Assembly (NCBI GenBank): GCA_030272155.1
Contig: CP126205.1
Location: forward strand, 794,501-858,500
Length of the DNA: 64,000 bases
Direction of reading: 5' to 3'
DNA from: Tetradesmus obliquus
Lineage: Eukaryota > Chlorophyta > Chlorophyceae > Sphaeropleales > Scenedesmaceae
The position numbers and the translations under genes are program-made. Numbering within the stretch: the first letter of the stretch is position 1; the number at the start of each line of letters is the position of its first letter. Positions 1 to 64,000 of this stretch are shown here, piece after piece. Below the pieces are notes generated by a model, which saw nothing but the letters and a program-made list of their open reading frames with translations, made no database searches and had not been told where the DNA came from.

Positions 1-3000
1 CATGCATGATCCTTGACAACACCAGCGGCCATGCTGCCACGCAAATCACACACACATGTGCATTCTGCCCCTGAAACAGTCACCTCACGCGGCTTGGCGT
101 TAACGCTCCAGGCCTTGCTTGCAGCCGCCACAATGCTGCCGCTGTCCCTGCCGCCCTGTCACAGACACCAAGCCTGGCCACACCAGCCCTGGCCACACCA
201 ACTTTGAAAGCAACCTCCCTCATCCACTCACCTCGCGCGGCTTGGCGTTGACGCTCCAGGCCTTGTTTGCAGCCGCCACGATGCTGCCGCTGTCCCTGCC
301 GCCCTGGTAATCCTCCGGCCGCTGCTTGTTGGCGCCAAACACCTTGATGGTTGGGTAGCCCTGCACGCCGTACTGCCCGCAAGTTGACTGGTGCGCTGTG
401 CAGTCCACGGCTCCAAATTTGACCTTGCCCTGCATGTCGCCTGCTGCGCTGATCCAGGCGGGCTTGAGCGCCTTGCAGTGACCACACCACGGCGCATAGA
501 ACTGCAAGACAAACACGGAGAAACAGTGCATGACGTGTCAGTTGTGTGTGTGTCTCAGGCTTGCTGGATTTGACCTTGCCTGAATGTCGCCGGCGGCGCT
601 GATCCAGGCGGGCTTAGGCGCCTTGCCGCGGCCGCAACCCGGCGCGTAGAACTGCGAGAAAAGCGGAGAAACAGAGCATGGCGTGTCAGCTGTGTGCGTG
701 TGTGTGTGCATGCTTGCCGAGTTTGACCCTGCCCTGCATGTCGCTTGCGGCGCTGATCCAGGCGGGCCTGAGCGCCTTGCAGTGGCCACACCAGGGCGCG
801 TAGAACTGCGGGCAAAGAAAAGACAATGTAACAGTCCATGCGGCATGTCAGTGGTGTGTCTCAGGCTGCAGCGCCTTGCAGTGGCCGCACCACGGCACGT
901 AGAACTGCAGGAAACACGGAAAAACAGAGCACGAAACGTCAGCGGTGTGTGTCAGGCTTGCTGGATGCGACCTTGCCCTGCATGTCGCCTGCTGCGGAGA
1001 TCCAGGCCTGCTTGAGCGCCTTGCAGTGGCCACACCACGGCGCGTAGAACTGCGAGAAAAGCAGAGAAACAGCATGGCGTGTCGGTTGTGCGTGTGTCTC
1101 AGGCTTGCTGGACGTGACCTTGCCCTGCATGTCGCCTGCTGCGAAGATCCAGGCGGGCTTGAGCGCCTTGCAGTGGCCGCACCACGGCGCGTAGAACTGC
1201 GAGAAAAGCAGAGAAACAGCATGGCGTGTCGGTTGTGCGTGTGTCTCAGGCTTGCTGGACGTGACCTTGCCCTGCATGTCGCCTGCTGCGGAGATCCAGG
1301 CGGGCTTGAGCGCCTTGCAGTGGCCGCACCACGGCGCGTAGAACTGCGAGAAAAGCAGAGAAACAGCATGGCGTGTCGGTTGTGCGTGTGTCTCAGGCTT
1401 GCTGGACGTGACCCTGCCCTGCACGTCGCCTGCGGCGCTGATCCAGGCGGGCTTGAGCGCCTTGCAATGGCCGCACCAGGGCGCGTAGAACTGTGGGCAG
1501 AAATGAGAAGATAAACATTGCATATGGTGTATCAGTGGTGAATCGCAGGCTTGAGCACCTTGCGTGAACTAACTTTAATAACTCTTAAAACGTGGAAGGT
1601 GAGGATCATTTTGCACATAACCCAAACTGTAAATATGCACACAAAAACTCATCCTTTCATTAGACTAATCTATTCCACATCCAAAGTAGCGCCATAATAA
1701 AAGTCCTGGCCTTTTTGTTTTTTAGAAAGAAAGGTTCAATAGAAGAGCAGGCAACAAAAATATTTACCTTTGGTTCTATAGAACAAAAGGCAAGAAGGCA
1801 AAAAACCTTTTGTTCGTTAGAACAAAAGCGCGTTGCCCAATAAAAAATTAAATGATCTCTATGGTATGGAATATGTGTAACGTTCGTGCAGATGCACCTA
1901 TGGCGTGGCAGAAATTGTTTCAAGACCCTGCAACGTCCAACATGGAAGGAATTGTAGACCTTCACGCAGATATTGCTTTTTTTATTGTAATTTTGGTTTT
2001 GGTTTTGTGGCTCCGAGCTCGAATTCTTGGAATTCGCAGTGGCAGCACCAGAGTGCGTAGGTCTGCAGGAAACAAGGAACACAAATGCTTGCATATAGTT
2101 GCTGGCTAGTATTGGGGTCATGACATGTGCTGCCAGTAGCACCAGGCAGCTGTTTCCTGCAGGCCCTTGCCCTAGCCTCCAACTGTCCGCCAACGCCACC
2201 CTGAAAGCTGCAGCTGTGGCCTCAACACTCACCTCCACAAACCAGATGTCGTCGCTGTTCATGACCTCATCCTCAAAGTTGCCGTCGGTCAAAGTAACAA
2301 CATCCGTGCCGTCATAGAAGCCGCCATCACCACCTGCGCCAGCACCAGCACCGCCGGATGCCCTGCCGCCGCTGCTGCCACCCGAAGGAGGCTTCTCCCC
2401 AAGCTGCTTGAAAGCAAAGGCCTTCGCCTTATCCATTGCGAACGCCACGATCTCCTTTGCGGAGCGGCCGCCGTTGTAATCGCTGGACTTGATGACGCCG
2501 TTTGACACGTAGAAGAACTTGATCGTGGGGAAGCCACGGATGCCATGCTCTCCTGCAATAAGAGAGCATTAGTTCATGTGAGTCCGGGCGACAGCTGAGA
2601 TGGCGTCAGTCACAACAGGGTAAACACATGGTCTGAGACCACACAATCATATAGAAGTGAGCGCTGTAGAGCACGCTGCACACCTGCGATTGACTTGTGC
2701 TCGTCGCAGTCCACTGCTGCCACGTTGACAATTCCTGCAAGCGCCTTGGCGGCCTGCTCCCATGCGGGCTTCAGCTGCTGGCAGTGGCCGCACCAGGGGG
2801 CGTAGAACTGCAAGCAGGGAAGACACAAACAACCACAAAAGATAAGTGCATGAGATGTCGGTGGTGTGTCTTAGGCTTCAGCTGCTGGCGGCAGAGAGAG
2901 AGCAGGGCAGAGAGGTGCAGGTGGCTGGGCGTGTCAGCAGCAGGCATGTGAGCAGCACTTGCAGGAGGGTGGGACACACGCAGGGGGTGTGCAAGCAGGG

Positions 3001-3460
3001 TGGGTGCAGCTGCTTCAAACTGTGTTATACCACTTGAACATGCTGTGACGTGCAGAAGTTGGAGCCAACTGTGTGGATGCTGGTGTGCTGGAGCAAAGCA
3101 GGCGCTGGCCGCACAGGGAACAGCAGCGCAGGCACCCAGGTGACAGCTGCTTTCTGCCTGGTCATCTGCATGCCTGTGTACCGCACCGAGACATTCATTG
3201 TAAACACAATTGCTTTAATCAATTGCGGTTCCTGCGCCTGGCGCTGTGTTTGCAATGATCTCCGGCCAACTAAGTCTATCCATGACCACACCCACCTCAA
3301 CCATCCAGACACCGCCCGACTTGATTTTGCTGTTGAAGTTGCTCTCCGTGAGACTTACAACCCCGCTGCTGCTGGAGTAGAAGGCATCAGCGCCCGAGAA
3401 GGCAGCTGCTGCACACAGTGCCAGCAGCAGGAGTTGTCGCGATGCAGCCATGGTTGCCAT
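1..3460 (-). CDS. Protein disulfide isomerase, P5/PDIA6 type (partial, 3' end outside window)
   Basis: Oxidises and isomerises disulfides in the ER lumen. Read exons, all in phase: 3460-3296 (signal peptide and start of the first thioredoxin domain), 2807-2684 (first active site, [12 protein letters not shown]), 2552-2233 (rest of domain 1, then a Gly/Ala-rich linker) and 501-232 (second active site [12 protein letters not shown] through the domain end, with GYPTIKVF around the cis-proline). The order signal peptide, domain a, Gly-rich linker, domain a' is that of PDIA6/P5. The protein continues past base 1, so the C-terminus and any KDEL signal are not seen. The intron between 2233 and 501 is swollen by eight copies of the second active-site exon, and the 3' end of the last exon is duplicated at about 83-164. 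Start chosen at the ATG directly ahead of a hydrophobic Leu/Ala signal segment. The family call is firm; the use of the extra exon copies is unknown. Confidence 0.9.
500..1523 (-). repeat. Array of eight thioredoxin active-site exon copies in the PDI gene
   Basis: Copies of the start of the second PDI active-site exon begin (minus strand) at 501 (the full exon), 651, 805, 904 (shortened), 1049, 1196, 1343 and 1490. Most carry a usable AG acceptor after a T-rich stretch. The last four intervals are about 145, 147, 147 and 147 bp. 147 is a multiple of three, so 939-1523 also reads straight through as one 194-residue frame in which [10 protein letters not shown] recurs every 49 residues. Each copy holds about 26 exon codons (78 bp), so adding copies as separate exons would also keep the frame. 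Confidence 0.9.
1550..2040. repeat. AT-rich island with hairpins in a PDI intron
   Basis: This stretch is far richer in A+T than its surroundings. It contains a perfect 9-bp hairpin with a 4-nt loop at 1808-1829 (CTTTTGTTC / GAACAAAAG) and a related near-perfect hairpin at 1767-1790 sharing the GAACAAAAG arm. It may be the remnant of a small non-coding mobile element. No coding capacity or clear terminal repeats were seen. A decayed further copy of the thioredoxin exon (ALWCCHCEF in place of APWCGHCKA) follows at about 2025-2062. Confidence 0.5.
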
Positions 3461-15859: not shown

Positions 15860-15890
<31 letters not shown>

Positions 15891-21498: not shown

Positions 21499-21535
<37 letters not shown>

Positions 21536-40840: not shown

Positions 40841-40871
<31 letters not shown>

Positions 40872-48661: not shown

Positions 48662-48697
<36 letters not shown>

Positions 48698-48917: not shown

Positions 48918-48953
<36 letters not shown>

Positions 48954-49350
48954 GGCTGCAGGAATGCTTCTGCTGCGCAGCGTTGCAGCTGTGGTTGGCC
49001 CAGTGCTGCCTTTGAGACCTCGCCGTCCTTATGTATGCGCGCCACCAGGGCTTTAATCGAGGTGGAGGTGCCCTCTGAACTCAATCACCCTTTTCACTTA
49101 CGGCAAGCCGCAGTGCTACCCGCTAGCTGCCACAGCTACCTCCTCCAGCTCTGCCACACCCTCAACACCACCACCTGCTGCTGCTGCTGCTGCTGCCGGC
49201 TGCAGGGTTGCTTCTGCTGCGCAGCGTTGCAGCTGTGGGTGGCTCAGTGCTGCCTTTGAGACCTCGCCGTCCTTATGTATGCGCGCCACCAGGGCTTTAA
49301 TCGAGGTGGAGGTGCCCTCTGAACTCAATCACCCTTTTCACTTACGGCAA
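48336..49350 (-). repeat. Four tandem copies of the last FMN/FHY exon beyond its stop codon
   Basis: The canonical last exon ends at 49360. Downstream, the frame ALVARIHKDGEVSKAAL through the polyAla run to VEGVAELEEVAVAASG and its stop is repeated at 49328-49116, 49084-48860, 48828-48604 and 48572-48348. Copies end 256, 256, 256 and 244 bp apart; the 244 interval reflects a shorter CTG run. Each copy replaces the canonical EANFTSLE with EGTSTSIK and is preceded by a TTCAG acceptor-like site, so each could act as an alternative terminal exon. Confidence 0.92.
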
Positions 49351-49359
49351 GCTGCAGTG

Positions 49360-51065
49360 CTACCCGCTAGCTGCCACAGCTACCTCCTCCAGCTCTGCCA
49401 CACCCTCAACACCACCTGCTGCTGCTGCTGCTGCTGCTGCCGGCTGCAGGAATGCTTCTGCTGCGTAGTGCTGTAGCTGTGGGTGGCTCAGTGCTGCTTT
49501 TGAGACCTCGCCGTCCTTGTGTATGCGCGCCACCAGGGCTTCAAGCGAGGTGAAGTTGGCCTCAGGACGCACATAGCCGCACACCAGCAGCCGTATTTCT
49601 TGGCCGTAGAAGGGCTGCAGGCAGCAAACAGCACAACTTTGTCAGGATGCCAAAGTGCAATTGAATTTGAGTTGCCCAGAGCCACGCACAAGCAGCCGGA
49701 GTCCATGGCCATAGAAGGGCTGCCGACAACGTACACAGCAGTAGTTTAGATGAACGCTGACTTGAAGTGAGGTTTGGTTTGCACATAGCCGCACAAGCAG
49801 TCGAATCTCTCGGCCATCGAAGGACTGCAGGCAGCAAATGCAGCACAACATGTGAGCACGCAAGCAGCACCCAGCTGCACACCAGCATTTGCTGGCCATA
49901 CAGGGCTTCATGCACAGCGTGAAGCCCTGGGCGGCCAAAGTTTCAAGGGATGCAAGTTTGCAGATCGCAATCAAGGAAGAATTCAAGACAGCTGGCAGCA
50001 ACAGTACACCCAAGCTGTTGCTGCCTCTGCTGTGTGGAGCAGCTGGATGGCACGCTAGCTGCAACACAGGTGCAATAGGCTGACACTGCTGTCCTGAGCT
50101 GCGTTTTCCGACCTGTTCGAAGTCATGCAGGATCCATGGCTCCGCCGTCTTCTCCGTGTTGTTGTAGAAGGGGTTCCAGCCAATGCTCATCACCATCTTG
50201 TACACCTGCAGCAGCAGCAGCAGCAGCAGGAGCAGCAGCAATAGCGCCCAGAGTTCAGCCAGCAGGGAGTGAAAAGGTTGTGCAATTAGTGCAACAGCTG
50301 CTGTGCGCTGCGCCCGGCACGGCTGCATATTCACCTAATGACGGTCAAACTTAACTTGTGGGTTGATAGTGCAACCCTACAACCCGCAACCCTCAACTTG
50401 CAAGTCATGCACACCTGGACTGAGTCGCCTATCCTTGCCCAGCCGCAGTAGATGCCTGTGACTGCCTCTGCGATGCTTAGTGTGCACTACTGTTGCTTAG
50501 TGTGCACTACTGTTGCTTAGTGTGCACTACTGTTGCTTAGTGTGCACTACTGTTGCTTAGTGTGCACTACTGTTGCTTAGTGTGCACTACTGTTGCTTAG
50601 TGTGCACTACTGTTGCTTAGTGTGCACTACTGTTGCACTCCGTATGCAGGACATGCAACCAAAACCCACCTCGCGTGAGCCGCCTATGCTGGCCCAGCCG
50701 CAGTAGATGCCCGTCACTGCTGCTGCAATGCTGCGTATGCTAATACGCTGCATGCTCATGCGCTGCATTTCACATGCAAGAAGTGCTCAACATAATGAGA
50801 AGCTCACTTCGCTTGAGTCGCCTATGCTGGCCCAGCCGCAGTAGATGCCCGTGACAGCCTCTGCTATGCTGTGGCGCAGCGAGTCTGCGTCCACGTTAGC
50901 AGTTGGGATGCCCAGCTCCTGCACAAAGCAGTGCGGTTTACAACGACAGCAGCAGAAGCAACACCAGGCGCATCGATATGTTGCAATGTCGCTGCACCAT
51001 CATGCAGAGCTCGGTTTATGCATGAGATCCTAAGCATGTGAGTTCGGGATGCTGCTGTTTCTCGT

Positions 51066-51097
<32 letters not shown>

Positions 51098-54034
51098 ACA
51101 CTGCTTCAAGAACAGTGCTTATGGCTGTCGCTGCATTGCTGCACAACGTCCTGCATGCCTTCGCCTCTCACCTTGGAGCCGCGGCCAAAGCCCTTGACCA
51201 CAGTGCCGCTGATTGTGAACACAGGGTCCAGCGGAATGACACCTTCCACTAGGTCCCCAAAAGGTGGCAGGCCGTAGATGGTGGGGTCAAAGGCGAGCAG
51301 TGATGGCAGCACCTGCACTACACCTGCATGTAGTACAAGCAGCAGCAGAACACCACAGAGTATGGAAAACATGTGTCAGCTGCATGCGGTTGAAGGATAC
51401 AGCTGCCCGTGCCAAGAGCCCCAGTCAAGGTAACTAAGCCCAGCAAAAACGGTCTTAAGCAGCACCATTATGTGTGTCTCACCTCCCTTGCCGCTGGCTG
51501 CTGCCTCTTCCTGGCTGATGGCTTTGAACTCATCTTGCGCCTCTACCAGTGACGGCACCACCACCACGCGCATGCCAGCAGCAACAGCACCCTGCACATT
51601 TGGAGAAAGGTAGACAGCCAAGCACGTGCAGATGTTAATGAAAAGCACATGCAGCGACTGAGCAGGCAGCCACATTACTGCATGTTATTCCGCAGGCTGC
51701 AGCTCACAGCAGGTCGCAGAAAGGCGCCACCCACAATCTACTTACACCATGCCAGACAGTGCTTCACAGCACACGGCCCAGTTCTGTCAAGACCAAGGCA
51801 ATCTGTAATCTTTTTTTCCGAAAATCCCTTGTCTTGTCTTTTCACGCACCTCTACGCCGCTGGGTGCGTCCTCAAAGCAGAGGCAGCTGCTGGCGGCCAC
51901 GCCCAGCTGCCGCGCTGCCTCAGCAAACACATCTGGCGCGGGCTTGCCGTTAGTAACCTGCATAGTGGGAGGCAACACGCAGCCACGTTTGTTACCGCGT
52001 GTGCACTCCAGCTGCTACGGGGCCTCAGAAAACACGTCCCAGACTTAGTACTTGACACAGCTGATTATAGCATATCGACACACCTCATCGCCATACATTG
52101 ATGCCTGGAACAGCTGCTGCAGCCAGAGCTTCTTTGAGAGCTTCTTGCTCAGTGACGACAAAATGACAAAATAACACACATAACAGCAAATGTAGCACAC
52201 CTCGTCGCCGCACACCGAGGCCTGGAACAACTCCTGCAGCCAGGGCTTTTTTGATAGCTTCTTTCCAAAGGTGGCCCTGCTGGTGCTGGTTGCAATCGCC
52301 ACCTTGGCGCCACAGTCTGACAAATGCTGCAGCAGCCGCCGCGCCCCGGGAAGCGGCCGAACATCAGCCCACCTGCAAGCATTTCATAACCAGATGATGT
52401 CGGTCAAATTATGCCAATGGCAGTGCATTATCACAGATGGAGGGATGCAGTGGAGCATGCTACAGCAGGGCCTGATGCTGCATTCCCTTATTTCCCGGCT
52501 GGTGCTGGTGGCGATGGCCGCATTGGCGCCACAGTCTGACAGGTGCTGCAGCCGCCGCCGCGCCCCGGGAAGCGGCCGCACGTCAACCCACCTGCATTCA
52601 TTTGCAGCACAAATAATAAACTTCGGCTGATGTACATGCCAGGTAGGTGCTTGCTGCACTGGAGCTGCTGCTGCAGATAGTCTTTCTTGCACCTTGTGTC
52701 TGTGCGCAGCACGCAATGGACGCTTGACACGTGACGTTACTGCAAGCGTAACGGCCAGCAGCCTGCCCAGCTTTCATTGCATGTGTAGATACTGCTGCCC
52801 TGGACACAACACCATGCCCATGCCCTGCTGCAGCTGCTGTAGCACCAGCAAGTGCAGGTAGCCGCCAGCAGCACCCCTGACCACCCCGTCGTACCACCAA
52901 ATAGTCTTGAGATCAAACATTACGATGCATCAGCTTGAGCAAGCGGCCGCTGCCTGTCACCATCTGCCCATCCTGCCGTTCACCCTCAACTGTCTTAGAT
53001 GCTTTTATAACCCACATTTGACTAATAGCATATGTGAAACTTGTCCTACCTCGCCTCCAGTAGCGGCTATGTCTGGTCAAACAGCTGCTGCGCGGGTACG
53101 TCCCGCTCCAGCAGCGCTGCCACTGCCATTGGCTCATCCTTGGCCTTGATATCATTGTCATTTTTACACTTTCTCGGATGCTGCCAAGACCTGCATGTAA
53201 CTACTTCTGAGCTACATTTGTTGTACAATCGTATAAATAACCACTGTCTTAGTAGTATGTTACCTCGCCTCCAGTAGCGGCTCTGTCTGGTCAAACAGCT
53301 GCTGTGCAGGCACGTCCAGCCCCAGCAGTGCCGCCACGTCACGCCAGCAGTCCAGCGGGCGCTTGCCCAGCGCTGTGCGCTGCGCCTCTGCAACACAGCG
53401 GGCGGGGCAACAGTAGTTTCCTCTGTAACGTTTACCGTTTGGTGGCAGGCTTCTAGGCAGCATACGCCACGTTGTGTTGGGTGATGTATGCCTTGCTGTG
53501 CGGCAATACACAGAAGTGGCTGGGCGGTGTTGGAGGAGGCAGCTGTGAAGGCAGTGGGCTGCTGGTCTTTGCCTGCAGGCTGACGGGTGCAAAAAAATAA
53601 GGAAGAGCTGTCGAGCAGTAGCAAGCTACACGCATGCAAGATTCAGTGGGTACACTGCTGCTCAAGATACATTCTCAGCATTTACTTCGGTGCTGCGCGC
53701 AAATTTTCACGAGGCATGCAAGCTGCAGCATTTGCTGGCGTTGCTGGGTGTGTGGTGGTTACCCTGCGACCTTGAACACGAGGTTTCATTGCCTAGCGCA
53801 ACACATTACCTTTGGTGAGCACTTTGCCATGCTGTGCCAGCACCTGCTGCGCCACTTCGATGCATAGTGACTCTGCATATACATGCAGCATCAGCGGTCA
53901 GGCAGGCCATCACTACTGCTTGTGTACGCTGCTGCGCTAGGCCATGCAGTAGGAAGATCTTGGGTGCACGTGCCTGTGTCTATTATCAGGCCGTCTAAAT
54001 CAAAGATGAATGCTGCAGGAGAGGCAGCAGCCAT
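49360..54034 (-). CDS. FMN/FHY: Bifunctional FMN hydrolase / riboflavin kinase
   Basis: Plant-type fusion: an N-terminal HAD phosphatase hydrolyses FMN to riboflavin, and a C-terminal kinase makes FMN from riboflavin and ATP. Ten exons in phase give 415 residues: 54034-53974, 53872-53810, 53387-53264, 52372-52201, 51957-51850, 51591-51483, 51323-51172, 50918-50808, 50205-50113, 49614-49360. HAD motifs: FIFDLDGLIIDTE (nucleophile Asp), AIATSTSRATFGKK, then NGKPAPDVFAEAARQLG and CLCFEDAPSGVE. Kinase motifs: VVKGFGRGSK and ELGIPTANVD (nucleotide and flavin site), GIYCGWASIG, MVMSIGWNPFYNNTEKTAEP, then CGYVRPEANFTSLEALVARI. Length is close to the Arabidopsis enzyme (379). Intron 1 appears to be GC-AG. 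Exons 3, 4, 8 and 10 have echoes. Confidence 0.92.
49615..49835 (-). repeat. Acceptor-side echoes of FMN/FHY exon 10
   Basis: The exon 10 start PFYGQEIRLLVCGYVRPEAN (49614) has upstream copies starting at 49729 (PFYGHGLRLLVRG) and 49824 (FDGREIRLLVRLCAN), intervals 115 and 95 bp. Confidence 0.85.
50415..50735 (-). repeat. Donor-side echoes of FMN/FHY exon 8
   Basis: The exon 8 end (AVTGIYCGWASIGDSSE, donor after 50808) is repeated with donors after 50670 (GIYCGWASIGGSRE) and 50415 (GIYCGWARIGDSVQ). The second interval is enlarged by the 20-bp minisatellite inserted in the intronic part. Confidence 0.88.
50477..50636. repeat. 20-bp minisatellite, eight perfect copies
   Basis: TGTGCACTACTGTTGCTTAG is repeated head to tail eight times (the last copy diverges at its end), inside an echo interval of FMN/FHY intron 8. 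The near-perfect identity implies recent expansion. Confidence 0.95.
52082..52170 (-). repeat. Donor-side echo of FMN/FHY exon 4
   Basis: The exon 4 end LSKKPWLQELFQASVCGDE (donor after 52201) is repeated as LSKKLWLQQLFQASMYGDE about 119 bp downstream with a GTGTGT donor. Confidence 0.88.
52480..52595 (-). repeat. Acceptor-side echo of FMN/FHY exon 4
   Basis: The exon 4 start WADVRPLPGARRLLQHLSDC (52372) is repeated upstream as WVDVRPLPGARRRLQHLSDC after a TGCAG acceptor, about 220 bp away. Confidence 0.88.
53050..53115 (-). repeat. Donor-side echo of FMN/FHY exon 3
   Basis: The exon 3 end LDVPAQQLFDQTEPLLEAR (donor after 53264) is repeated with a GTAGGA donor after 53050, but the Glu codon has become a stop, so inclusion would truncate the protein. 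Confidence 0.85.
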
Positions 54035-55502: not shown

Positions 55503-55535
<33 letters not shown>

Positions 55536-58334
55536 AGATCCGCCGCTATGCTCCTGATGACCTCAAGTTTGTCATTGAGGACATCACTGATGGTGATGCA
55601 ACAAAGGTCGGCGTGAAGTGGTGAGCAGCTAATTGCATCACCCTGAAAAAACTTCATAACAAAGAAATGGTTGACATGTCAAATGTGCGCTTTCACCAGC
55701 AGCTCTGACGTCAGCAGGCATTGCGCAAGCCGCCAAGGCAGCAGCGCTACCACCAGCAGTACCAACATTGGAAGATAACAAAAGCGCGCAAAATCATGTG
55801 TTGTGTCCCTGCAGGCATGTGGAGTCTGGTGACGGCGTCTTCTTCCCCTTCAGCAGCAATGATCTAGAACACCTTTGACGTGGATTTGTGATGCCCATGT
55901 TGTGCCGCTGCAGGCACGTGGAGTATGGTGACGGCGTCTTCTTTCCCTTCAGCAGCAATGATCTAGAACACCTTTGGCGTGGATTTGTGATGTTCACGTT
56001 GTGTGTCCCTGCAGGCACGTGGAGTGTGGTGACGGCGTCTTCTTCCCTTTCAGCAGGGGCTGCAGCTTCATCACACTCAACAGCAGCTGCCAGATCCAGA
56101 CGGTGAGTGTTGCCATGCAAGCTAGCAGCAGGCTTGTGTGTGTTTGTTGCACGCGATGCCTGCCTGCTGGCATCAGCGCCCACGTGACTTTGTGTTTACT
56201 CTGCAACAGCTGCGGGTTGGTGCAGGGCCAGACACAGCGACCAGCACTTGCAGTTGCTCGTTCTGCTGAAGGTCATATGCTGTTTCTTCTGTCCGTTTTC
56301 TCTCTCCTTGCTGCCACAGGTGCGTGATGTGGTTGAGCCCTCAACCAAGCCTGGTGACTCCACCCTGGTGCTGCTGGGTGCGCTCACCCCTCTCATCCGC
56401 AAGCTGGGCCCAGCAGCAGACCCCGCCAACCTGAAGCGGCTACCCATTGCAGCAGCAGCTGTCTGGGCACTGTACGTCGGTGAGTGCTGCTGCCGCTGCT
56501 GCTGTGGTTGTGGTGAAGGCATGCCGTCGGCATAGCTTGCAAGCACAGTCGCAGCAGTGCATGTCAAACACATCAACACCGACGTGTCTGGGTTGCACTT
56601 TGTTGCGTTGCTGAGTGATGTGGCTGAATTGATGTCACTGCGACAACTGCATGTGCTCAATGACCGTGATCCAACTGCGAAGAAATGGACAATCATTGGG
56701 CTGCTGCTGCTGCTGCTGCCCCAGGCTACCTGTCGATTGTGATGCTCAGCACCGCTGTGCCAGGCGCGCCAGCCATCGCCACACCGCCTGAGGTGTTTGA
56801 GGAAATCCTGCAGGTGGGCTGGCAGCCAGCATGATGTGCAGGGCACACAGTGCGGCTGAAACCTGTTGTGCTTGTGAACGAGTGCGTGTCTGCAGTCTAT
56901 TGCCACACCGCCTGAGGTGTTCCAGCAGATCCTGCAGGTGGGCATGCCTATGAAGCTGCATCTTGCAGGCACATGAGCCTGCAAGCCTGTGTGCATTGCC
57001 TTTGCCTTTGCTGTGCGCACGCTTGCCCAACGCTCCTGTCAAACTGCCATCGCCACACCACCCGAGGTGTTCGAGGAGATCCTGCAGGTGGGCAGGCAGC
57101 ACCAGTGTGTTTTGCACACATTGTGGCTCGGGTAAAGCATTCTTGATAGTCAGCCTGTGCCTCAACCAATGCCCATCTGCCAATCAATGCACAACTGATC
57201 TCAACATCCCTTTCACACCCCCTTCAATCCCCATCTCGAACCACAGGAGTCCATCAACCTGTGGTGGATCAATGACAGCCTAACCGCCCTAGGCCTCAGC
57301 TTCATCCCCAATATGCCCTGCCGCCCTCTTTGGCTCCAACCAGAAGCTGCTCTAGGCACAATCATGCAGAACTGTGCGCATTGCTTTTGCCTTGGCTGCT
57401 TGCATATGCCCTGCCCTTCAAACCGCTGTGAATGCGCCTTGCAACCCTGCAGGAGTCCATTAACCTGTGGTGGATCAACGACAGCCTGACTGCCCTAGGC
57501 CTCAGCTTCATCCCCAACGTGCCCTGCCCGCCAGTCAGCGAGGCAGTCTTCAACTTTGTGCTTGGCTGGTGCCTCATGTTCCTGCCCGTGATGCTGACAG
57601 ATGGACCGTCGCAAAAGGTAGAAAAGAAGGTGAGAATGCTGCCGGCAGGGTTCTGGAGTTATGTTGTAACTTTGTGCTGGGCTGGTGCCTCATGTTCCTG
57701 CCCGTGATGCTGACAGACGGGCCCTCATAGAAGGTCGAGTAGAAGGTAATAATGCTGGCAGTTGTGTTAGCAGGGAACTGTGAAACCCAGATTTGTGCTG
57801 CAACTTTGTGCTGGGCTGGTGCCTCATGTTCCTGCCGGTGATGCTGACCGATGGACCTTCAGAAAAGATCAAGAAGAGGGTGAGATTTATGGAGTTGTTG
57901 ATTGACAATGCATTGGCGTAGTTGCTGAATGTTTTAGGGCTGTGCTTTGCAGTTCCCATGTGTCCACAGTGGTATCGCTGGCGGCAGCGCCTCAGGTGTT
58001 TCAGTGGACTGACTGCAGCACACCATCCCTGCAACGATCCTGCTGACTGCTGCTGCCAACTGCTGCTGCTGCCGCTGCTGCAGGGTGCGTGGTTTACAGC
58101 CATCATGTTCATCACCAACGTCTTCTTCATCCTATATATGCACTTTTGCTGCTGCTGCTGCCGTCACTGCTGCAGGGTGTGTGGTTCACAGCCATCATGT
58201 TCATGACCAACGTCTTCTTCATCCTATTTATGCACTTGCTGCTGCTGCTGCCGTCACTGCTGCCGCTGTTGCAGGGCGTGTCTTTTACGCCCATCATGTT
58301 CATCACCAACGTCTTCTTCATCCCCTTCATGCTA

Positions 58335-58392
<58 letters not shown>

Positions 58393-59441
58393 AGGGTGCG
58401 TGGTTTACAGCCATCATGTTCATCACCAACGTCTTTTTCATTCCCTTCATGGCCCTGAGGGCAATGCCAGAGCCCCTGGAGCCGGCAGCAGCAGCAACCA
58501 GCAGCAGCAGCAGCAGTGTGGCAGCAGCACAGCGGCAGCGCAAGGTGGCGGTGCCTGGCAGTCAGCGGCTGCCCAGCTGGTCACCTGCGCTGGGTGCTTT
58601 TGGAGGCTTCATTGGCGTGTTTGCCATCTACTGGGCACTTGCGGGTGAGATATGCTTGTTTCATGTAACAGGCTAGCATGCTGGACTGCTGGGCTTCTTT
58701 TGCCACACCTGCACGCTGGTATGCTGCAGTGCTGCATGCTCAGTTGCTAGTCGGGTTGTGCGGAGGATCTTGTATGATGTGAGTCACCAGCTGCCATGTC
58801 AATCGCCTCAATTATTTGTGCATCAGCTCATACAGCAACTGCTGCTGCTGCTGCTGCTGCTGCTGCAGGCCGTCCAGAGTTTGGTGACCTGTCTGCCCGC
58901 TATGACTACTTTCAAACAACATTCAACAGCAACAGGGTGCGTGACGTGGCCTAAATGTTTGCTCAAGCACTGGTTGCAGCAGCGTCACATGCCCTGAGCT
59001 GCTGCGCCATGTGCCAAGCTTGACATGCTGCATCATGCGTGCAAGTACTGCAGGCCAGGCCTGCAGGGGCTTGGTTGCTGTCAGCACTGCGTGTTTCACT
59101 TCTTACTCGACAACTTTTAACTTTGTTGTGTGTAACATTGCCCCCCCTGCAGGTGTTCCGGGCATTCAAGCTGGACATGGGCCTATTCTACGCCTGGCAG
59201 CTCTCTTTCCTGCAAACCTTTGCCGCAACTGTGCGGCAACTTTGACCATGTTTGACCAGTTGCTGGCAACACTGCTTTCCTGCAGGTGTTCTGGGCCTTC
59301 ATGCTGGACATGGGCCTGTTCTACATCTGGCAGCTGTCTTTCCTGCAAGCAGCGCCAGCGCAGTACAAGTACGTGCCATACTTTGGCCTGGCTGGGTGGC
59401 TGATTGCTGGAGGCACAGCAGCCGATGCGGAGGAGGCTTGA
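54733..59441 (+). CDS. SnoaL-like domain fused to a multi-span membrane domain (predicted plastid)
   Basis: Ten exons (54733-54891, 54963-55178, 55538-55620, 56015-56102, 56320-56479, 56725-56813, 57453-57629, 58395-58644, 58869-58936, 59286-59441) join in phase to 481 residues. The Ser/Leu/Arg-rich, acid-poor N-terminus resembles a plastid transit peptide. A SnoaL/NTF2-fold domain follows (VVIAFYDAYNKRDLAAISNL, then DISYHDLVYDEPHEGREGV and ITDGDATKVGVKWHVE). The second half has several hydrophobic spans: AVWALYVGYLSIVML, FNFVLGWCLMFLPVML, WFTAIMFITNVFFIPFMAL, FGGFIGVFAIYWALAG and YVPYFGLAGWLIAGG. I recall plant plastid proteins of similar layout but give no function. Exon 1 and its 71-bp CAG-rich intron are the least certain part. 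Exons 4, 6, 7, 8 and 10 have echoes. Confidence 0.8.
55240..55322 (+). repeat. AAAGC pentanucleotide tract
   Basis: About 14 tandem AAAGC units with a few substitutions, in intron 2 of the SnoaL-membrane gene. Confidence 0.9.
55814..55985 (+). repeat. Acceptor-side echoes of SnoaL gene exon 4
   Basis: The exon 4 start (HVECGDGVFFPFS, at 56015) occurs twice upstream, at about 55815 and 55914 (HVESGDGVFFPFSSND and HVEYGDGVFFPFSSND), at 100-bp intervals, each after a CTGCAG acceptor. Confidence 0.9.
56881..57087 (+). repeat. Donor-side echoes of SnoaL gene exon 6
   Basis: The exon end AIATPPEVFEEILQ with a GTGGGC donor (56813) recurs with donors after 56937 (SIATPPEVFQQILQ) and 57087 (AIATPPEVFEEILQ), intervals 124 and 150 bp. 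Confidence 0.9.
57247..57330 (+). repeat. Acceptor-side echo of SnoaL gene exon 7
   Basis: ESINLWWINDSLTALGLSFI occurs at 57247 after a CCACAG acceptor, 206 bp before the full exon at 57453. The copy agrees for about 70 bases, then diverges. Confidence 0.9.
57655..57879 (+). repeat. Donor-side echoes of SnoaL gene exon 7
   Basis: The exon end FVLGWCLMFLPVMLTDGPS with its donor (57629) recurs with donors after 57745 and 57879, intervals 116 and 134 bp. The first echo carries TAG stops near its end; the second stays open (DGPSEKIKKR). Confidence 0.9.
58084..58335 (+). repeat. Acceptor-side echoes of SnoaL gene exon 8
   Basis: The exon start GAWFTAIMFITNVFFIPFM (58395) is preceded by copies starting at 58084, 58176 and 58275 (GVWFTAIMFMTNVFFILFM, GVSFTPIMFITNVFFIPFM and similar), intervals 92, 99 and 120 bp. 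Each follows a (CTG)nCAG acceptor, and the last three stay open through the intron. Confidence 0.92.
58336..58392 (+). repeat. (CTG)19 tract abutting a splice acceptor
   Basis: About 19 CTG units run directly into the CAG acceptor of exon 8 of the SnoaL-membrane gene. Confidence 0.9.
59153..59215 (+). repeat. Acceptor-side echo of SnoaL gene exon 10
   Basis: VFRAFKLDMGLFYAWQLSFL at 59153 precedes the full exon start VFWAFMLDMGLFYIWQLSFL at 59286 by 133 bp. Both have a CTGCAG acceptor, so which of the two is normally used is open. Confidence 0.88.
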
Positions 59442-59780
59442 GGCTGCTGTATCTCCTGCAAGCAGTGCCAGCGCAGTTCAAGTACCTGCCGTACTTTGGC
59501 GTGGCGGGCTGGCTGATTGCCGGCGGTACCACAGCCGATGCGGAGGAGGCTTGAGGCAGCTGTCTTTCCTGCAAGCGGCGCCAGCCCAGTACAAGTACGT
59601 GCCGTACTTTGGCCTGGCTGGGTGGCTGATTGCCGGCGGTACCACAGCAGACGCAGAGGAGGCTTGAGGCAGCTGTCTTTTCTGCAAGCAGCGGCAGCGC
59701 AGTTCAAGTACCTGCCGTACTTTGGCCCGCCAGGCTGGCTGACTGCTGGAGGCACAGCAGCAGACGTAGATGATGCGTGA
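59442..59780 (+). repeat. Three extra copies of the SnoaL gene's C-terminal end, each with its stop
   Basis: The end of the last exon (APAQYKYVPYFGLAGWLIAG, then ADAEEA and TGA) is repeated three times past the gene's stop, with stops near 59554, 59667 and 59780 (about 113-bp period). Readings are close (VPAQFKYLPYFGVAGWLIAG, APAQYKYVPYFGLAGWLIAG, AAAQFKYLPYFGPPGWLTAG). The SFLQ coding run includes CCTGCAAG instead of an acceptor, so these are probably 3'-UTR copies. Confidence 0.9.
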
Positions 59781-60529
59781 GGCAGCCATCACGGCTGTCA
59801 CGGCAGAAAATAGACTTTCCTGCAAGCAGCACCCTCCAACAAAAACCACCTGGCCTAGCCGTGGGCAGGTGTCAGCCTGTGGATTGAATCAGCTTGGTAT
59901 GTGACTGCTGGGTGGTGCATTTTTCCTTCTCCTGTGCATGCATGCAGTGCTGCGCCGCTAACAACTTTGTTCATTTTGGTCACATGCCAGCTGACCAAGC
60001 TGTCAGCTGAAGCTGAAGTTGTAGCCGCTGCTGCTGCCGGTTGCTGTGTTTTTGAAGCATGGTGCAGTTGATTGGTACTGTCACACATAAACCGGATTTG
60101 CTGGTAACAAAGCAATGGATATGCCTGCGTGCAGTTCACATGTGCACTTGTGCACATGGAACCTTTTTTGTTGCAGATACTGGCACGCACAGAGTGGCGT
60201 TAGATCGCCTGCGCCTCTGCCGTGCTGATAACACAAGTCTTAAAATCATAGCGAAGAGCGTTTTCACTGTGGATCAGCTGGCCTCGGTGGAATCTAGGAA
60301 CCAGGGCTTTCATGACACCCGCCACGCTGTACCCACAAACACAGCTTTCCACCCAATCGCAAATTACGCTGCTTACAGCAACCAGATTCAATGCTTAGCA
60401 TTTGATAAAAATTGTTTGCGGAGAAGCACACCATCGTTTCGACCACACCCAGAGCTAACTTGCACATCGCTGGTTGATTGCGTGCCTTGTAAATCTGTGC
60501 ATGATTTCTTTGTCATAAGCAAATAAACA
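59781..60529. other. Intergenic, no supported gene
   Basis: About 750 bp ahead of the methyltransferase start. An open frame at 60059-60526 lacks any recognisable domain. The proximal part probably holds the methyltransferase promoter. Confidence 0.45.
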
Positions 60530-63500
60530 ATGCAGCGCCTGCGTACTTTGCAGGTTCAGTCTCACCACAGGGCATACGTGTGTGCAGCACTGCCACGCCT
60601 TCCAGGCGCCAGCCAACGCACATTAGCGCAGTCTTCGCCCCATTCTTCCCCTCTTAGCAGCAGTGGTGCATCCCGGCGGCAATTGCTGGGATCCCTAGTA
60701 TTGGGTGGCTCTAGCTTACTGGAGCTCAGCAGCAGCGGCTGGTCCAGCAGATCTGTGGCACAAGCAGCAGCAGTGTCAGAGAAAGAAAAGGTGAGCAGTT
60801 GGCGTTATCAGACGTACAAAAGGCAGAATGTGGCGAGGGAAGGCATTGTGAGGTCGAAATCCAGCTCTGCCAGGAATCCAATGAAATGCTGTGCTGTCAT
60901 ATGTCGGGCTTTGGTGGGGGACAGCACCACACTTGTTCACCCGCCTCTTGGGGGCAGCGAGGCGAAATTGAATAGCCTAAAAACCTACATGTCCTCATCT
61001 GCGGCTCAAGGGGCCTAGCAGTGCGACATGCTGCAGTTGGTCGGGTTGCATTGTACACTGCAGCTACATGCGTGGCAGTGCATGGATGTGCACACATCAC
61101 GATTTTCTCATGAACGAGATACCTGATGCTGGATGTGCACACATCACGATTTTCTCATGAACAAGACACTAATGCGCATTGCATGCTCATATCCTGATTA
61201 ACTCGGCTTTGCTTAGCAAAACAGATGAATCCGTCCAGCTTGCCAGCACAGCAACCTCCCGCAATGCACGGCGTCTGCAGCGGCAGCCCTACAACACGTT
61301 CGAGCCCTGAATGGCACCTCATCAACACGCACGTGCTGGTTGTAACTGCAACAGCTCGATCTCCTGACGTCCCGCTCTTCCAAAGCTCTTGTGGAAACTT
61401 GACAACATGTGCTGTGTGGCCTACTGCTGCTGCAGGTGCTGCAGGACCCCAAGTGGCCTGAGAAGTGGCCCTTCAGGCCGGAGGATTTCCTGCGGTGAGG
61501 CGGCAGCTGCACCATGTTTGTTTTTTTGAAGCAGCAGCAGCGGCAGCAGCAGCGGCAGCAGCAGCGGCAGCAGCAGCGGCAGCAGCAGCGGAGGCAGCAG
61601 CAGCAGCAGCGTTGACAGCGGCAGCATGTGGCAGCTGGCAAGGGTGGTCTCTTCCGGAGAAAGCAGCAAGTGCGGCTGGTGCACCAGTATGGCAGATACA
61701 GTGAGCAGCACACCACGTGCTGGCCGATGCCAGACACTCTCGCTACATCAGCAAGGCAAAGTCGAATAAACTTTACTTTTTTGTTTGCATTAAACCAGCA
61801 GGCTGCGCGTCATTCGCAGCTGGTGCTCTGTGCAGCAGCATGGAGTCATACAATGCTGTGCAGTGGCTTTGGAGGTCCCTAGGTCATATTGCCCAGCAGC
61901 CACCATCTTCTGACAAACGCCTGCTGCTCTGCCGCTGCCCTGACCATGTTTTGTAACAGTTACGACGAGAGTGACGACTCGGTGTTCTACGAGGCGCCGC
62001 GCTTTGTGTACCACATAGATGATGGAGCAGTCAAGTCCCTCACAGAGTAAGTGCCATGTGGCGCAGGAAAGAAAGAGCGCATAGTATCGTATGCAGGCCA
62101 GCACAGCTGCGGGTGTGCTGGGCTGCCTGCTATCAGCACACCTGTCACATGGTCTACCCTGAACCTTGTTCGGCTCGCAGTAAGGGCCACATATTGAATT
62201 GCAGCTGCTGACTTTCTGTTGCTTCGCATTTACCACTGCTGCTGCTGCTGCTGCCACCTGCGGGTTCTACAGCAGCGTGTTCCCTCCCTCGGGCAGCGAT
62301 GACATTACTCAAGCCATTGTTCACGTGGTCCTGCTGCTGCTGCTGCCGCTGCTGCTGCGCGTGCTGCAGGTCCTACGCAGTGTCTTTCCTCTCTCAAGCT
62401 TGCTCATTGATCACAGTCACAACCGCCTCTGACGCGTGCTATTGTCACTGCTGCTGCTGCCGCCACCTGCAGGTTCTACGGCAGCGTGTTCCCTCCCTCG
62501 GGCAGCGACGACGCTCACTCATGCCATTGCTCAAGTGGTCCTGCTGCTGCTGCTGCCGCTGCTGCTGTGCCTGCTGCAGGTTCTACGCAGTGTGTTTCCT
62601 CTTTCAGGCTTGCTCATTGAATCACAGTCACAACAGCCTCTGACGCGTGCTGTTGTCATTGCTGCTGCGTTGTCCTGCAGGTTCTACAGCAGCGTGTTCC
62701 CTCCCTCGGGCAGTGATGACGTGGCGATGCTGGACATCTGCAGCAGCTGGGTCAGCCACTACCCGCCAGGCTACAAGGCAGGCAAGATCGTAGGTGAGCA
62801 AATTGGTGGACACACAGCAGCAGCAGCAGCAGCAGCAGCCGTGGCAGCAGCTAGGTCAGCCACTAGCCGCCAGGCTACAAGGCAGGCAAGATTGTAGGTG
62901 AGCAAGTTGGTCGAAGCACAGCAGCAGCAGTGGCGGCGGTGGCAGCAGCTGCAGCAACAGCAATGGGGCAGCAGCAGCCGTGGCGGGAACAACAGCAGCC
63001 GCAGAAGGGTCATGAGGCTGCAAAGAGTGTGGCTGGAGGCTGCTCATGCCTTTGCGACTCTGCCGAGCCTTCCTTCGCGACCGGCAGCAATGTGCTGCGC
63101 CCAGACACCAGGCCCTTTTGTTGTAGCCTTCAGTGCACATTTCTTGCCACTGCCCTCAAGCCCTCGTCCCTGCTATGGGCTTTGTGCTGTGTTCTGCAGC
63201 GCTGGGTATGAGTGAGGAGGAGCTCAAGGCCAACAAGGAGGCCAGTGAGTACGTGGTGCACGACCTCCACTGCGAGCCAGACCTGCTGCCGCCTCCAAAC
63301 TTCTCAACCCTCTGACCACTCCGCTTCGCTTTTTGTGCCGTGCAGTGCTGAACAAAAGAAGGTGATGAAAATTCGTAACCTGCCGCCAGCTTCAGCCTCT
63401 CAGCACGCTATTGTTCTGACTTGCCGCTGGTGTTACTGCTTGAAGCGCTGGGCATGAATGAAGAAGAGTTGAAAGCCAACAAGGAGGCCAGCGAGTATGT

Positions 63501-63706
63501 GGTGCATGACCTCAACTTGGAGCCAGACCTGCCCTTCCCTGACAACAGCTTTGACATCATCACAAATGCTGTCAGCGTGGACTACCTCAACAAGCCCCTG
63601 GAGGTGTGTTACATGATGTTTACATTGTGTGCTCTTCTCAGCGTGAAGTGGGGTGATCCCGATCAGGAGCCAGGACATACTGCCGCAGAGACTGTGTAGC
63701 TGGGCG

Positions 63707-63748
<42 letters not shown>

Positions 63749-64000
63749 AGTGCATGCGTTTGGGCGCTGTGGCAGAGGACATCAAGCCTTTTCCTGACAC
63801 CCATGCTGCTGCTGCTGCTGCCGCTGCCGCTGCTGCAGGTGTTCCAGGAGATCCACCGCGTGTTGAAGCCTGGGGGCAAGGCCTACATGAGCTTCTCCAA
63901 CCGCTGCTTCCCTACCAAGGGTGAGCTTTATGTGACTGGCTGCATGTATGCTGCTTCGTCCATGTCGACAGCTCAACAGCCTCCAGCACCACCTTTGGCT
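60530..64000 (+). CDS. SAM-dependent methyltransferase, predicted plastid/thylakoid lumen (partial, 3' end outside window)
   Basis: UbiE/type-11-like methyltransferase of a plant-algal plastid group. Exons in phase: 60530-60790, 61436-61494, 61960-62046, 62681-62793, 63446-63603, 63839-63920, continuing past 64000. The N-terminus has a transit-like region, then a twin-arginine signal (SRRQLLGSLVLGGSSLLEL) and an AQAAA cleavage-like site, the pattern of Tat-exported thylakoid-lumen proteins. Core: DPKWPEKWPFRPEDFLR, FYEAPRFVYHIDDGAVKSLT, VAMLDICSSWVSHYPPGYKA (SAM-binding motif I region, atypical in lacking a G-x-G), GMNEEELKANKEASEYVVHD, PDNSFDIITNAVSVDYLNKP and RVLKPGGKAYMSFSNRCFPT. The substrate is unknown. 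Exons 4 and 5 have echoes. Confidence 0.85.
61083..61168 (+). repeat. 47-bp direct repeat, two copies
   Basis: GGATGTGCACACATCACGAT with the following TTTTCTCATGAAC occurs at 61084 and 61131, in intron 1 of the methyltransferase gene. Confidence 0.9.
61530..61610 (+). repeat. Imperfect (GCAGCAGCG)n tract
   Basis: A run of GCAGCAGCG-type units in intron 2 of the methyltransferase gene. Confidence 0.85.
62264..62680 (+). repeat. Four acceptor-side echoes of methyltransferase exon 4, in alternating types
   Basis: Copies of the exon 4 start (FYSSVFPPSGSDD, full exon at 62681) start at 62264, 62370, 62473 and 62580, at 101-107 bp intervals. The first and third read FYSSVFPPSGSDD / FYGSVFPPSGSDD; the second and fourth read SYAVSFLSQ / FYAVCFLFQ-like. 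The array is thus a repeated dimer of about 209 bp. The acceptor of the first copy is degraded (GCGG); the others keep CAG. Confidence 0.9.
62855..62897 (+). repeat. Donor-side echo of methyltransferase exon 4
   Basis: The exon 4 end (GTCAGCCACTACCCGCCAGG to the GTAG/GTGAGC donor at 62793) is repeated about 104 bp downstream with an identical donor after 62897, but TAC has become TAG, a stop. Confidence 0.88.
63200..63315 (+). repeat. Acceptor-side echo of methyltransferase exon 5
   Basis: ALGMSEEELKANKEASEYVV then HDLHCEPDLLP starts at 63200 after a TTCTGCAG acceptor, 246 bp before the full exon (63446, ALGMNEEELKANKEASEYVV then HDLNLEPDLPFPDNSFD). The echo runs for about 30 codons and then loses the frame, with a stop at 63315. 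Confidence 0.9.
63707..63750 (+). repeat. (CTG)14 tract
   Basis: Uninterrupted CTG units ending in CAG, in the intron before methyltransferase exon 6. A second CTG/CCG run ends at the true acceptor (63838). Confidence 0.9.

Follow-up and report, generated by a model that had tools for sequence, protein, structure and literature searches.

Introduction

Introner elements form dispersed families and place repeated sequence in many algal introns. The copies described here from the alga Tetradesmus obliquus resemble them in putting repeated sequence into numerous introns, but they are local: among the candidates scored, stretches from three genes (ADA2, FMN hydrolase and SnoaL) gave no dispersed matches other than simple repeats and the neighbouring minisatellite. 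For a PDI stretch, one 53-bp match was found on another contig.

A tandem duplicate across an intron-exon boundary has been described in the potato RdRp gene by Ma, Lan & Niu 2016 (PMC4974935). It takes in the 3' portion of one intron and the 5' portion of the exon that follows, and with them a copy of the 3' splice site; the same article mentions an 83-bp duplication within an intron. The likeness lies in a direct tandem duplicate over a border, splice site included. The potato duplicate, as presented in the excerpted text of that article, is however a single case that created a new intron, whereas extrapolation for the alga gives some 17,000 copies, which show preferred units and whose exon parts survive longer than their flanks. 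In the Rogers model, introns are gained by tandem duplication of an exon segment bearing AGGT (Hellsten 2011 and Gao & Lynch 2009, in PMC3443670; Lehmann 2010, PMC2891723). Common to both are a short intragenic tandem duplication and splicing as the rescue, yet the model, in the form these excerpts give it, draws both ends of the new intron from the duplicated exon piece, while in the alga both the duplicated border and the intron that receives it were already present.

Staggered breaks repaired by end joining with fill-in yield small tandem duplications (PMC8355091; overhangs tested 43-50 nt, insertions described as <100 bp), and breaks with long overhangs can in this way give rise to direct head-to-tail duplicates. 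A preferred unit of 118 or 237 bp is a feature of the alga and does not appear in the staggered-break account of the excerpted text. Dscam likewise has exon duplicates inside one gene, which are alternatively spliced (PMC3236188). These are tandem exons under mutually exclusive splicing, whereas the algal copies are mostly partial and include one border. As represented by these excerpts, published accounts of intron change by tandem duplication cover few cases. The single potato case was already known; the abundance and the preferred unit reported here appear to be new. Thousands of staged examples in one genome would make it possible to measure the length at birth, the rules of survival, decay and exchange, and the preferred lengths suggest a particular DNA transaction behind them.

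Results

Local exon copies are abundant and direct

The sampled DNA amounts to 334 kb of T. obliquus, made up of the 64-kb window (the whole stretch covered by the preliminary description) and 27 random 10-kb regions. Exon labels are predictions of a self-trained gene finder made without RNA data, and Pfam matches of joined predicted proteins back the PDI, UGT, ADA2, FMN hydrolase/riboflavin kinase, SnoaL and methyltransferase genes. Local exon copies not themselves predicted as exon are called strict, and a single-border copy was counted when it reached to ≤12 bp from the exon border.

The window holds 80 direct and 0 inverted repeat pairs less than 2 kb apart, plus 2 pairs at larger distance; five locally shuffled windows gave 0 pairs. 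Local hits at E≤1e-5 were direct in 215 cases and inverted in 1 with the low-complexity filter at 1.0, and 614 against 4 with the filter at 1.5, the satellite region L027 being left in for these counts. Across the 334 kb, predicted exons have 113 local copies situated outside any predicted exon, 81 of them including one border and 27 both. Single-border copies occur in 13 of the 27 random regions, which extrapolates to ~17,000 (bootstrap 8,900-26,700) in 104.66 Mb. The tandem copies are genuine and spread over the whole genome, in agreement with the genome-wide duplication process first supposed.

Under the strict filter 20 of 107 window exons have a copy, matching the initial figure of at least twenty, while the statement that nearly every multi-exon gene carries them was too strong (19 of 42 sampled models with ≥4 exons). 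Six of the seven genes originally named have border copies (Table 1); the gene finder calls those of PDI exon, which places them outside the strict set. The seventh, a 'Cys-repeat', is most likely the 256-bp minisatellite, a plain tandem array. At E≤1e-6 no window repeat clusters were found within 18.2-34.5 kb or 40.6-48.3 kb; a laxer search gave a 41-bp hit (23534-23716) and a 32-bp hit (40724-40821) there.

Table 1. Tandem copies and arrays in the 64-kb window (positions in the window; spacings in bp)
Feature	Position	Strand	Remarks
PDI, donor-side copy (69-158) of end of exon 232-440	69..306	-	spacing 148, 91% identical; copy labelled exon
PDI, array of exon-plus-intron units, period ~147-151, several copies	417..1563	-	part-similar stretch 2690-2882
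Tandem array, 88-bp unit, 4.4 copies	12069..12463	.	outside gene models; same process without exon
UGT, donor-side copy of exon 15048-15236	14899..15126	-	spacing 140; codon-position mismatches 2/0/9; copy partly labelled exon
UGT, three acceptor-side copies upstream of exon 16231-16478	16418..17045	-	spacings 130/273/416; flanks alike (young array)
UGT, donor-side copies of exon 17634-17822	17305..17721	-	spacings 156 (flank alike), 313 (flank not alike)
UGT, acceptor-side copies of exon 17634-17822	17792..18153	-	spacings 210, 312
ADA2, array of ~124-bp units and donor copies of exon 35478-35566	34551..35512	-	donor spacings 114, 220
ADA2, donor copy of exon 36500-36620	36230..36561	-	spacing 265; alignment ends 5 bp into intron; GT changed to TT
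ADA2, array of 102-111-bp exon-plus-intron units	36804..37856	-	partly called coding by gene finder
ADA2, donor copy (37972-38048) of exon 38227-38378	37972..38298	-	spacing 250; copy labelled exon
ADA2, copy near donor of exon 38775-39017	38648..38829	-	spacing 133, 94% identical
ADA2, acceptor copy of exon 40324-40457	40399..40586	-	spacing 107
256-bp minisatellite array, 4.9 copies, 94% matches	48345..49571	.	not an exon-border copy
FMN hydrolase/riboflavin kinase, acceptor copies of exon 49534-49614	49569..49849	-	spacings 105, 210
FMN hydrolase/riboflavin kinase, donor copies of exon 50808-50918	50412..50871	-	copies 50667-50740, 50412-50485
FMN hydrolase/riboflavin kinase, acceptor copy of exon 52201-52326	52275..52603	-	spacing 219; 58 bp of intron also alike
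FMN hydrolase/riboflavin kinase, donor copy of exon 53264-53463	53047..53337	-	spacing 214
SnoaL-domain gene, tandem array, 99-bp unit, 2.6 copies	55794..56056	+	
SnoaL, donor copies of exon 56725-56813	56772..57100	+	spacings 124, 274
SnoaL, acceptor copy of exon 57453-57629	57244..57528	+	spacing 206; alignment from 3 bp before exon; 5/6 mismatches third-position
SnoaL, donor copies of exon 57453-57629	57548..57898	+	spacings 116, 250
SnoaL, three acceptor copies of exon 58395-58644	58040..58451	+	spacings 120/219/311
SnoaL, 113-bp exon-plus-intron array	59146..59786	+	
Methyltransferase, exon 62681-62793: 209-bp tandem unit on acceptor side, 104-bp copy on donor side	62239..62950	+	
Methyltransferase, acceptor copy of exon 63446-63603	63195..63532	+	spacing 246; copy partly labelled exon

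Copies obey a head-to-tail side rule

The side expected of a head-to-tail duplicate is occupied by 74 of the 81 single-border copies (acceptor copies: 46 upstream, 2 downstream; donor copies: 28 downstream, 5 upstream), as follows from the geometry of such duplication. Head-to-tail tandem duplication is thus very probably the origin of the copies. Directed copying of the exon edge plus ~6 nt into the adjacent intron, for example by RNA-templated or splice-site-targeted insertion, would suit the 34 of 59 copies that lack flank similarity, their mean falling at about +6. Such insertion would not follow the 74:7 rule, however, nor carry the intron flank that is included in 19 of 74 copies, and over 38 first-mode copies, whose choice in itself bounds the spacing, the gap is the more variable of the two (sd 24, against 19 for the spacing); we consider such insertion extremely improbable.

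Since the ~118-bp unit is close to the typical predicted exon (median 104 bp), most units that touch an exon cross a border. Clusters spanning one border make up 42 of 94, against 20% expected under random placement, and those with two or more borders 12 of 94 (10% expected); 14 lie in exon interiors (17% expected; some are arrays labelled exon by the gene finder), 22 in introns only (39% expected) and 4 between genes (15% expected). This ~2.2-fold border enrichment is partly a detection effect, exon-derived copies being recognisable for longer. The proposed tie to borders is mostly accounted for by unit length and tandem geometry, but the enrichment speaks in its favour.

Spacings point to a preferred unit

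Spacings had been given as mostly 90-160 bp, which holds for 66 of 97 clusters (90-159 bp) but missed a second mode near 237 bp. In a mixture fit to 94 clusters, two components at 116 and 237 bp beat one (BIC 44.7 vs 73.5), and the 65 clusters from random regions alone gave 119 and 238 bp (19.1 vs 42.3); a three-component fit to all data was slightly better (BIC 42.4) and adds a small 62-bp group. Only 3 clusters have spacings of 160-199 bp, where a single log-normal predicts 17.8. Independently, Tandem Repeats Finder reported 28 arrays with periods of 80-160 and none at 60-80 or 160-200. Among 14 clusters within predicted exons, 13 have spacings of 96-134 bp and the remaining one of 244. Because these intra-exon clusters share the same spacings, unit length is apparently not set by splicing.

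Four of the 21 clusters in the 237-bp class are complete double-length units, and in the other 17 a significant intermediate copy is present in only 5, about three of them near halfway. This scarcity indicates that the class is not simply made of arrays whose middle copy has faded. A mutational step with a preferred length is the probable cause of the spacings.

Exon parts outlast their intron flanks

The intron flank is alike in 19 of 74 copies (26%) and not recognisably similar in 55, while exon-part identity is nearly the same in the two classes (0.866 and 0.872). Plain neutral tandem duplication followed by decay, with exon parts better kept since the exon is constrained, accounts for the side rule and fits the 19 flank-similar copies fully (third-position ratio 2.19, 1.40-3.37; 2 stops against 2.0 expected; no indels). 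Yet neutral simulation at matching identity left 71% (t=0.09) to 61% (t=0.12) of flanks similar, and reached 18-32% only at t=0.16-0.20, when exon parts had dropped to 0.80-0.82; the observed flanks were lost without any such drop.

Identity falls from 0.73 at +2 to +6 to 0.38 at +6 to +10 in 34 flank-dissimilar copies, and over all 55 runs through 0.74, 0.48 and 0.41 to 0.30 by +15 to +20. The same fall at +6 is seen in 24 copy-copy pairs of which neither member is coding (0.71 to 0.49), which likewise argues against decay alone. In these pairs the exon part is 0.864 and the flank 0.624 identical (random-pair flank 0.50), the copies having been found through the exon part and hence being biased towards high exon-part identity. 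In favour of neutral decay, the pair that is closest by exon part is also closest by flank in 8 of 13 groups (one of them tied). The two differ in 5 (35477, 56813, L006:1666, L010:1578, L020:5881); such disagreement would be the direct sign of exchange, but it is a weak one here, several of these flank values being at noise level. Altogether, neutral tandem duplication with decay alone is disfavoured, and we judge it unlikely.

Flank-dissimilar copies carry a partial coding signature

In the 55 flank-dissimilar copies the third-position ratio is 3.08 (bootstrap 2.54-3.70), an interval overlapping that of the flank-similar class, and 2 stops are present where 6.5 are expected. By our reasoning, two-way gene conversion alone would give a ratio near 2; a ratio of 3.08 would require either that the copy had at one stage been the exon itself or that selection acts through exchange. 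Changes private to one copy are distributed 30/29/62 over the codon positions.

The excess of third-position changes, the few stops and the retention of the splice dinucleotide in 56 of 74 single-border copies over all regions, which bears out that most AG and GT are kept, could also be read as selection on alternative exons or decoy splice sites. Retention (0.76) is nevertheless below the 0.86 predicted from codon positions 1/2, and 11 of the 12 indels in exon-derived parts break the frame. All 12 lie in flank-dissimilar copies and fit weak constraint at most, although 8 of them are ≤18 bp from the distal alignment end. With one border only, as in 81 of 113, most copies cannot be whole exons, and most do not combine both borders with an intact frame as a tandem alternative exon would. 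Selected function of this kind is very unlikely, and the suggestion that the copies supply alternative exons finds no support, given the broken frames and the 18 of 74 lost splice dinucleotides. Intron growth, proposed alongside, follows from copy anatomy.

Unequal exchange between diverged haplotypes, in which the copy stems from another allele and has synonymous differences and an unrelated flank from birth, would yield both properties in one step. None of the candidates scored for ADA2 (40 of 263), FMN hydrolase (4 of 4) and SnoaL (40 of 373) was a second gene copy that could act as donor, leaving the allele as the likely outside donor. Third positions, however, differ by only 23%, and introns equally diverged should often align (61% flank-similar in the simulation at t=0.12). 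We regard this origin as very improbable.

Discussion

The best reading of these data, in which our confidence is evenly divided, is recurrent tandem duplication in preferred units that is tolerated through splicing, after which exon and copy go on exchanging sequence. Where a duplication unit crosses a border, the piece joined to the remaining exon stays exon and the other becomes an intronic partial copy. Such duplications would be tolerated because splicing can skip the extra border: an additional upstream acceptor or downstream donor is presumably ignored, leaving the mRNA unchanged and the intron longer. The common unit may reflect slippage or fill-in over ~118 nt during a single local step of replication or repair, and this one kind of slip might account for the birth, loss and homogenisation of copies alike.

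The exon-derived stretch of a copy, through the end of the splice motif, may keep swapping sequence with the exon, whether by gene conversion, by slipped-strand template switching or by unequal exchange with subsequent re-duplication, while the intron-derived part, unconstrained in both copies, would escape exchange and diverge. Sequence comparison within one assembly thus tentatively suggests continuing exchange, on which we stay somewhat short of even confidence. If it is true, exons co-evolve with their intronic copies, which bears on how genes in T. obliquus are annotated, dated by synonymous rates and edited. A bolder version, which is possible but doubtful, has a single replication or repair process producing head-to-tail units of ~118 bp, or double that length, throughout genes, with ongoing exchange, so that introns would be a reservoir of near-copies of exon ends able to return to coding sequence.

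The earlier description of the copy nearest the full exon as usually the most similar is not borne out: that copy beats the farthest in 9 groups and loses in 7.

Copies of exon ends in adjoining introns

Comparison of the window with itself yielded 80 direct repeat pairs less than 2 kb apart, two direct pairs farther apart and no inverted pair, and five locally shuffled windows yielded no pairs. With L007 left out, nineteen readable random 10-kb regions from elsewhere in the genome held 49 clusters comprising 87 local direct pairs, two farther pairs and one inverted pair; with eight regions added later, the 27 regions contained 160 local pairs in 66 clusters, spread over 16 regions, along with 50 farther pairs and one inverted pair. 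One of the later additions, L027, consists mostly of a satellite with a 355-bp period, which probably explains the high intergenic share in the 27-region repeat list. The exon-border copies of the preliminary description are real and occur genome-wide. Chance as their source is ruled out by the shuffled windows and the inverted-strand control, and an assembly artefact is unlikely because the copies diverge by 7–23%, depending on codon position, and have different flanks.

A typical aligned copy comprises 30–90 bp of one exon end plus the splice motif and little else, and lies in the adjoining intron, past the border that is copied. In 334 kb (the window and the 27 random regions) we counted 113 distinct copies not labelled as exon, namely 81 one-border copies (within 12 bp), 27 both-border copies, a class that may include the L027 satellite, and 5 interior copies. 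Among the one-border copies, those of acceptors lie upstream in 46 cases and downstream in 2, those of donors downstream in 28 and upstream in 5. Since a head-to-tail unit across an acceptor must leave its partial copy upstream, and one across a donor downstream, this side rule is diagnostic of tandem duplication, with no need to invoke selection.

Copies accompany 20 of 107 exons in the window and 44 of 452 in the random regions. By gene model, 19 of 48 from the random regions contain copies, as do 3 of 8 from the window, the latter being partly merged. Counted per 10 kb, the 74 copies on the expected side have a density of 4.69 for the window and 1.63 for the random regions, which extrapolates to 17,056 (8,916–26,747) in the genome.

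The same event, a duplication across an intron–exon boundary, is described in one gene, the potato RdRp (PMC4974935), and tandem duplication is treated as an intron source in a review and a survey (PMC3443670, PMC2891723). Among the top-listed papers of a literature search, judged by title and abstract opening and with most subscription journals outside its coverage, there was no report of genome-wide intronic exon-border copies, none of a preferred unit and none of exon parts outlasting their flanks.

Gene models and filters

The genome holding the window comprises 104,662,953 bases in 17 contigs; in a table of PMC12571836, in whose main text the words "intron" and "tandem" do not occur, Tetradesmus obliquus GCA_030272155.1 appears at 104.70 Mb in 17 contigs, with a GC content of 56.5%, and that paper also lists a second assembly of the species, GCA_030272055.1. 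Exons were labelled by a small gene finder self-trained on sequence alone, without annotation, which converged on plausible splice sites (MAG/GTGAG and CTGCAG/G) and on median lengths of 104 bp for exons and 216 bp for introns. Across the 334 kb it predicted 689 exons, 559 of them at least 30 bp long; the window models include merged neighbours. When it was retrained on all regions, its predicted exons became progressively shorter (median 83), so the original model was kept and the retrained exon labels were unused, while the repeat list from the retraining run still fed the spacing, unit-class, border-enrichment and mixture-fit analyses. Before counting, copies were dropped if more than 30% lay inside predicted exons or the low-complexity score exceeded 1.5, and duplicates of one locus and exons shorter than 30 bp were removed.

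Pfam domains in manually joined proteins back the window genes: thioredoxin/PDI, Myb and TADA2A (ADA2), UDPGT, HAD and flavokinase, SnoaL, and methyltransferase. With unaltered letters, thioredoxin scored 5.4e-29 and Methyltransf_11 1.1e-4, barely past the cut-off. CTG/CAG microsatellites are abundant across the whole window; they also precede the acceptor at the ends of some introns and, in predicted proteins, show up as glutamine/alanine stretches.

Enrichment at exon borders

Clusters crossing exactly one border made up 42 of 94, compared with 20% if units of the same lengths were placed at random; because the observed class is judged on the aligned part only, and exon-derived parts persist longer than the rest, this enrichment is real in the data yet no proof of targeting. 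Clusters with two or more borders numbered 12 (about 9 expected) and exon-interior clusters were at expectation (14 versus about 16), while intron-only (22 versus about 36) and intergenic clusters (4 versus about 14) fell below it. Of the earlier suggestion that the copies are tied to exon borders, the excess stands; the link itself is mostly geometry plus detection.

A preferred unit length

When each of the 97 clusters is represented by its smallest spacing, two modes appear: 118 bp for the larger group (sd 20, n=73) and 238 bp for the smaller (sd 25, n=21). Two components strongly beat one in all data and in the random regions alone, and were slightly favoured in the window alone (BIC 33.4 versus 35.0); a small third component at 60–62 bp lowered the BIC a little, to 42.4 for all data and 30.3 for the window, with no gain in the random regions (21.5 versus 19.1). 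Tandem Repeats Finder returned 273 arrays, of which 235 have periods below 60, none 60–80, 28 between 80 and 160, none 160–200, and 10 between 200 and 500. The length derived from the exon (mean 43, sd 17) is uncorrelated with spacing across 38 first-mode copies (r=0.08). Clusters inside predicted exons share the spacing of the others; in 8 of these 14 exon-interior clusters it is divisible by three, as selection for frame would give. In the second mode, 4 of 21 clusters consist of whole units 209–229 bp long. The idea that the 237-bp class represents arrays with a missing middle copy was rejected, a significant in-between copy being found in only 5 of 17. This preferred unit is one of the surprising parts of the observation.

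Loss of similarity beyond the splice motif

The exon parts of the 74 expected-side copies are about 87% identical, and 19 copies have a similar intron flank, that is, one scoring above the 95th percentile of a same-neighbourhood control. Plain neutral tandem duplication followed by decay would predict many more: simulated through the same search, it left 71% of flanks similar at t=0.09, when exon parts stood at 0.878, and 61% at t=0.12 (0.846), and shares of 18–32% arose only with exon parts at 0.80–0.82. Each run had a single age and 0.12 indels per substitution, and some of the simulated stretches contained real copies from the start (the youngest run gave 328 detections for 300). Plain decay is favoured by the nearest relatives of exon part and flank, which agree in 8 of 13 groups (L020:9209 among them); on balance we consider it unlikely.

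Exon-part identity is equal with a similar flank (0.866) and without one (0.872); its correlation with the flank score is −0.13 (rank correlation 0.14). Of the 59 copies in the first set, 34 are flank-dissimilar, and their ungapped identity was 0.73 at +2..6 but 0.38 at +6..10; pairs of copies, neither of them coding, dropped from 0.71 to 0.49. The 55 flank-dissimilar copies of the larger set showed a gentler fall (0.74, 0.48, 0.41, 0.30). Between copies, exon parts averaged 0.864 identity and flanks 0.624, compared with 0.50 for unrelated flanks. This loss just past the splice motif is surprising and is unexplained by plain duplication.

Codon constraint and possible exchange

Mismatches by codon position number 92/86/253, each of about 1,210, changes private to one copy 30/29/62, and stops 4 where 8.5 are expected. 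The flank-similar class behaves as neutral (ratio 2.19, 1.40–3.37; stops 2 versus 2.0 expected). The flank-dissimilar class has a ratio of 3.08 (2.54–3.70, 40 groups), an interval overlapping the former, with stops 2 versus 6.5; 11 of its 12 indels break the frame and 8 of the 12 lie no farther than 18 bp from the distal end. Of the 74 copies, 56 retain the splice dinucleotide, a share below the 0.86 expected from positions 1/2. Because of the frame-breaking indels and the splice-site loss, codon-constrained functional copies were dropped as the main reading.

The pattern of codon positions, stops and indels suggests continuing exchange between exon and copy over the homologous part, for which we see slightly less than an even chance. 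Exon part and flank disagree on their nearest relative in 5 of 13 groups, which gives no clear sign of exchange and lowers its odds. In the mechanism we propose, slippage or fill-in spanning about 118 nt would create the copies; copy sequence would later pass in and out of the exon over the homologous part, and the intron flank would escape. Fill-in end joining is described as yielding small tandem duplications (PMC8355091). Tandem duplication with a preferred unit and exchange is our best overall explanation, at about an even chance; a duplication engine of about 118 bp or its double, with copies in continuing exchange with exons, seems rather doubtful.

Paralogous genes as outside donors were rejected for three genes on the candidates scored (40 of 263, 4 of 4 and 40 of 373). 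Whole-genome searches used 2 kb of SnoaL, 2.7 kb of ADA2 and 4 kb of FMN hydrolase; among those candidates there were no second copies, and matches elsewhere were only simple repeats and the neighbouring minisatellite. The PDI query, bases 1 to 1,000 of the window, had one 53-bp match, on contig 17 (Table).

Table. Positions of individual features (window coordinates unless prefixed; L, random regions)
Feature	Position	Observation
Stretches free of copy clusters	18200-34500; 40600-48300	None at E<=1e-6; gene models include long exons, by eye bromodomain-, leucine-rich- and small-GTPase-like
Exon-interior clusters	37054-37563; L006, L020, L021, L022, L029	
Intronic pair, 60 bp	5988-6047 / 6284-6343	90% identical, 296 bp apart, in predicted intron without predicted exon
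Minisatellite	48345-49571	256-bp unit, ~4.9 copies, 94% matches, containing CTG runs; partly called coding by the gene finder
Tandem repeat	50474-50636	Perfect 20-bp unit, 8.1 copies, between copies of a riboflavin-kinase exon
Satellite	L027:1303-10000	355-bp period (~3 x 118), ~8.7 kb, outside gene models
PDI match	864-916 / C17:1573255-1573307	53 bp, 87%; possibly a related PDI exon
Kinase-family matches	G000:C15:1399073-1399435	Overlapping profile ranges ~250 bp apart; possibly another exon copy
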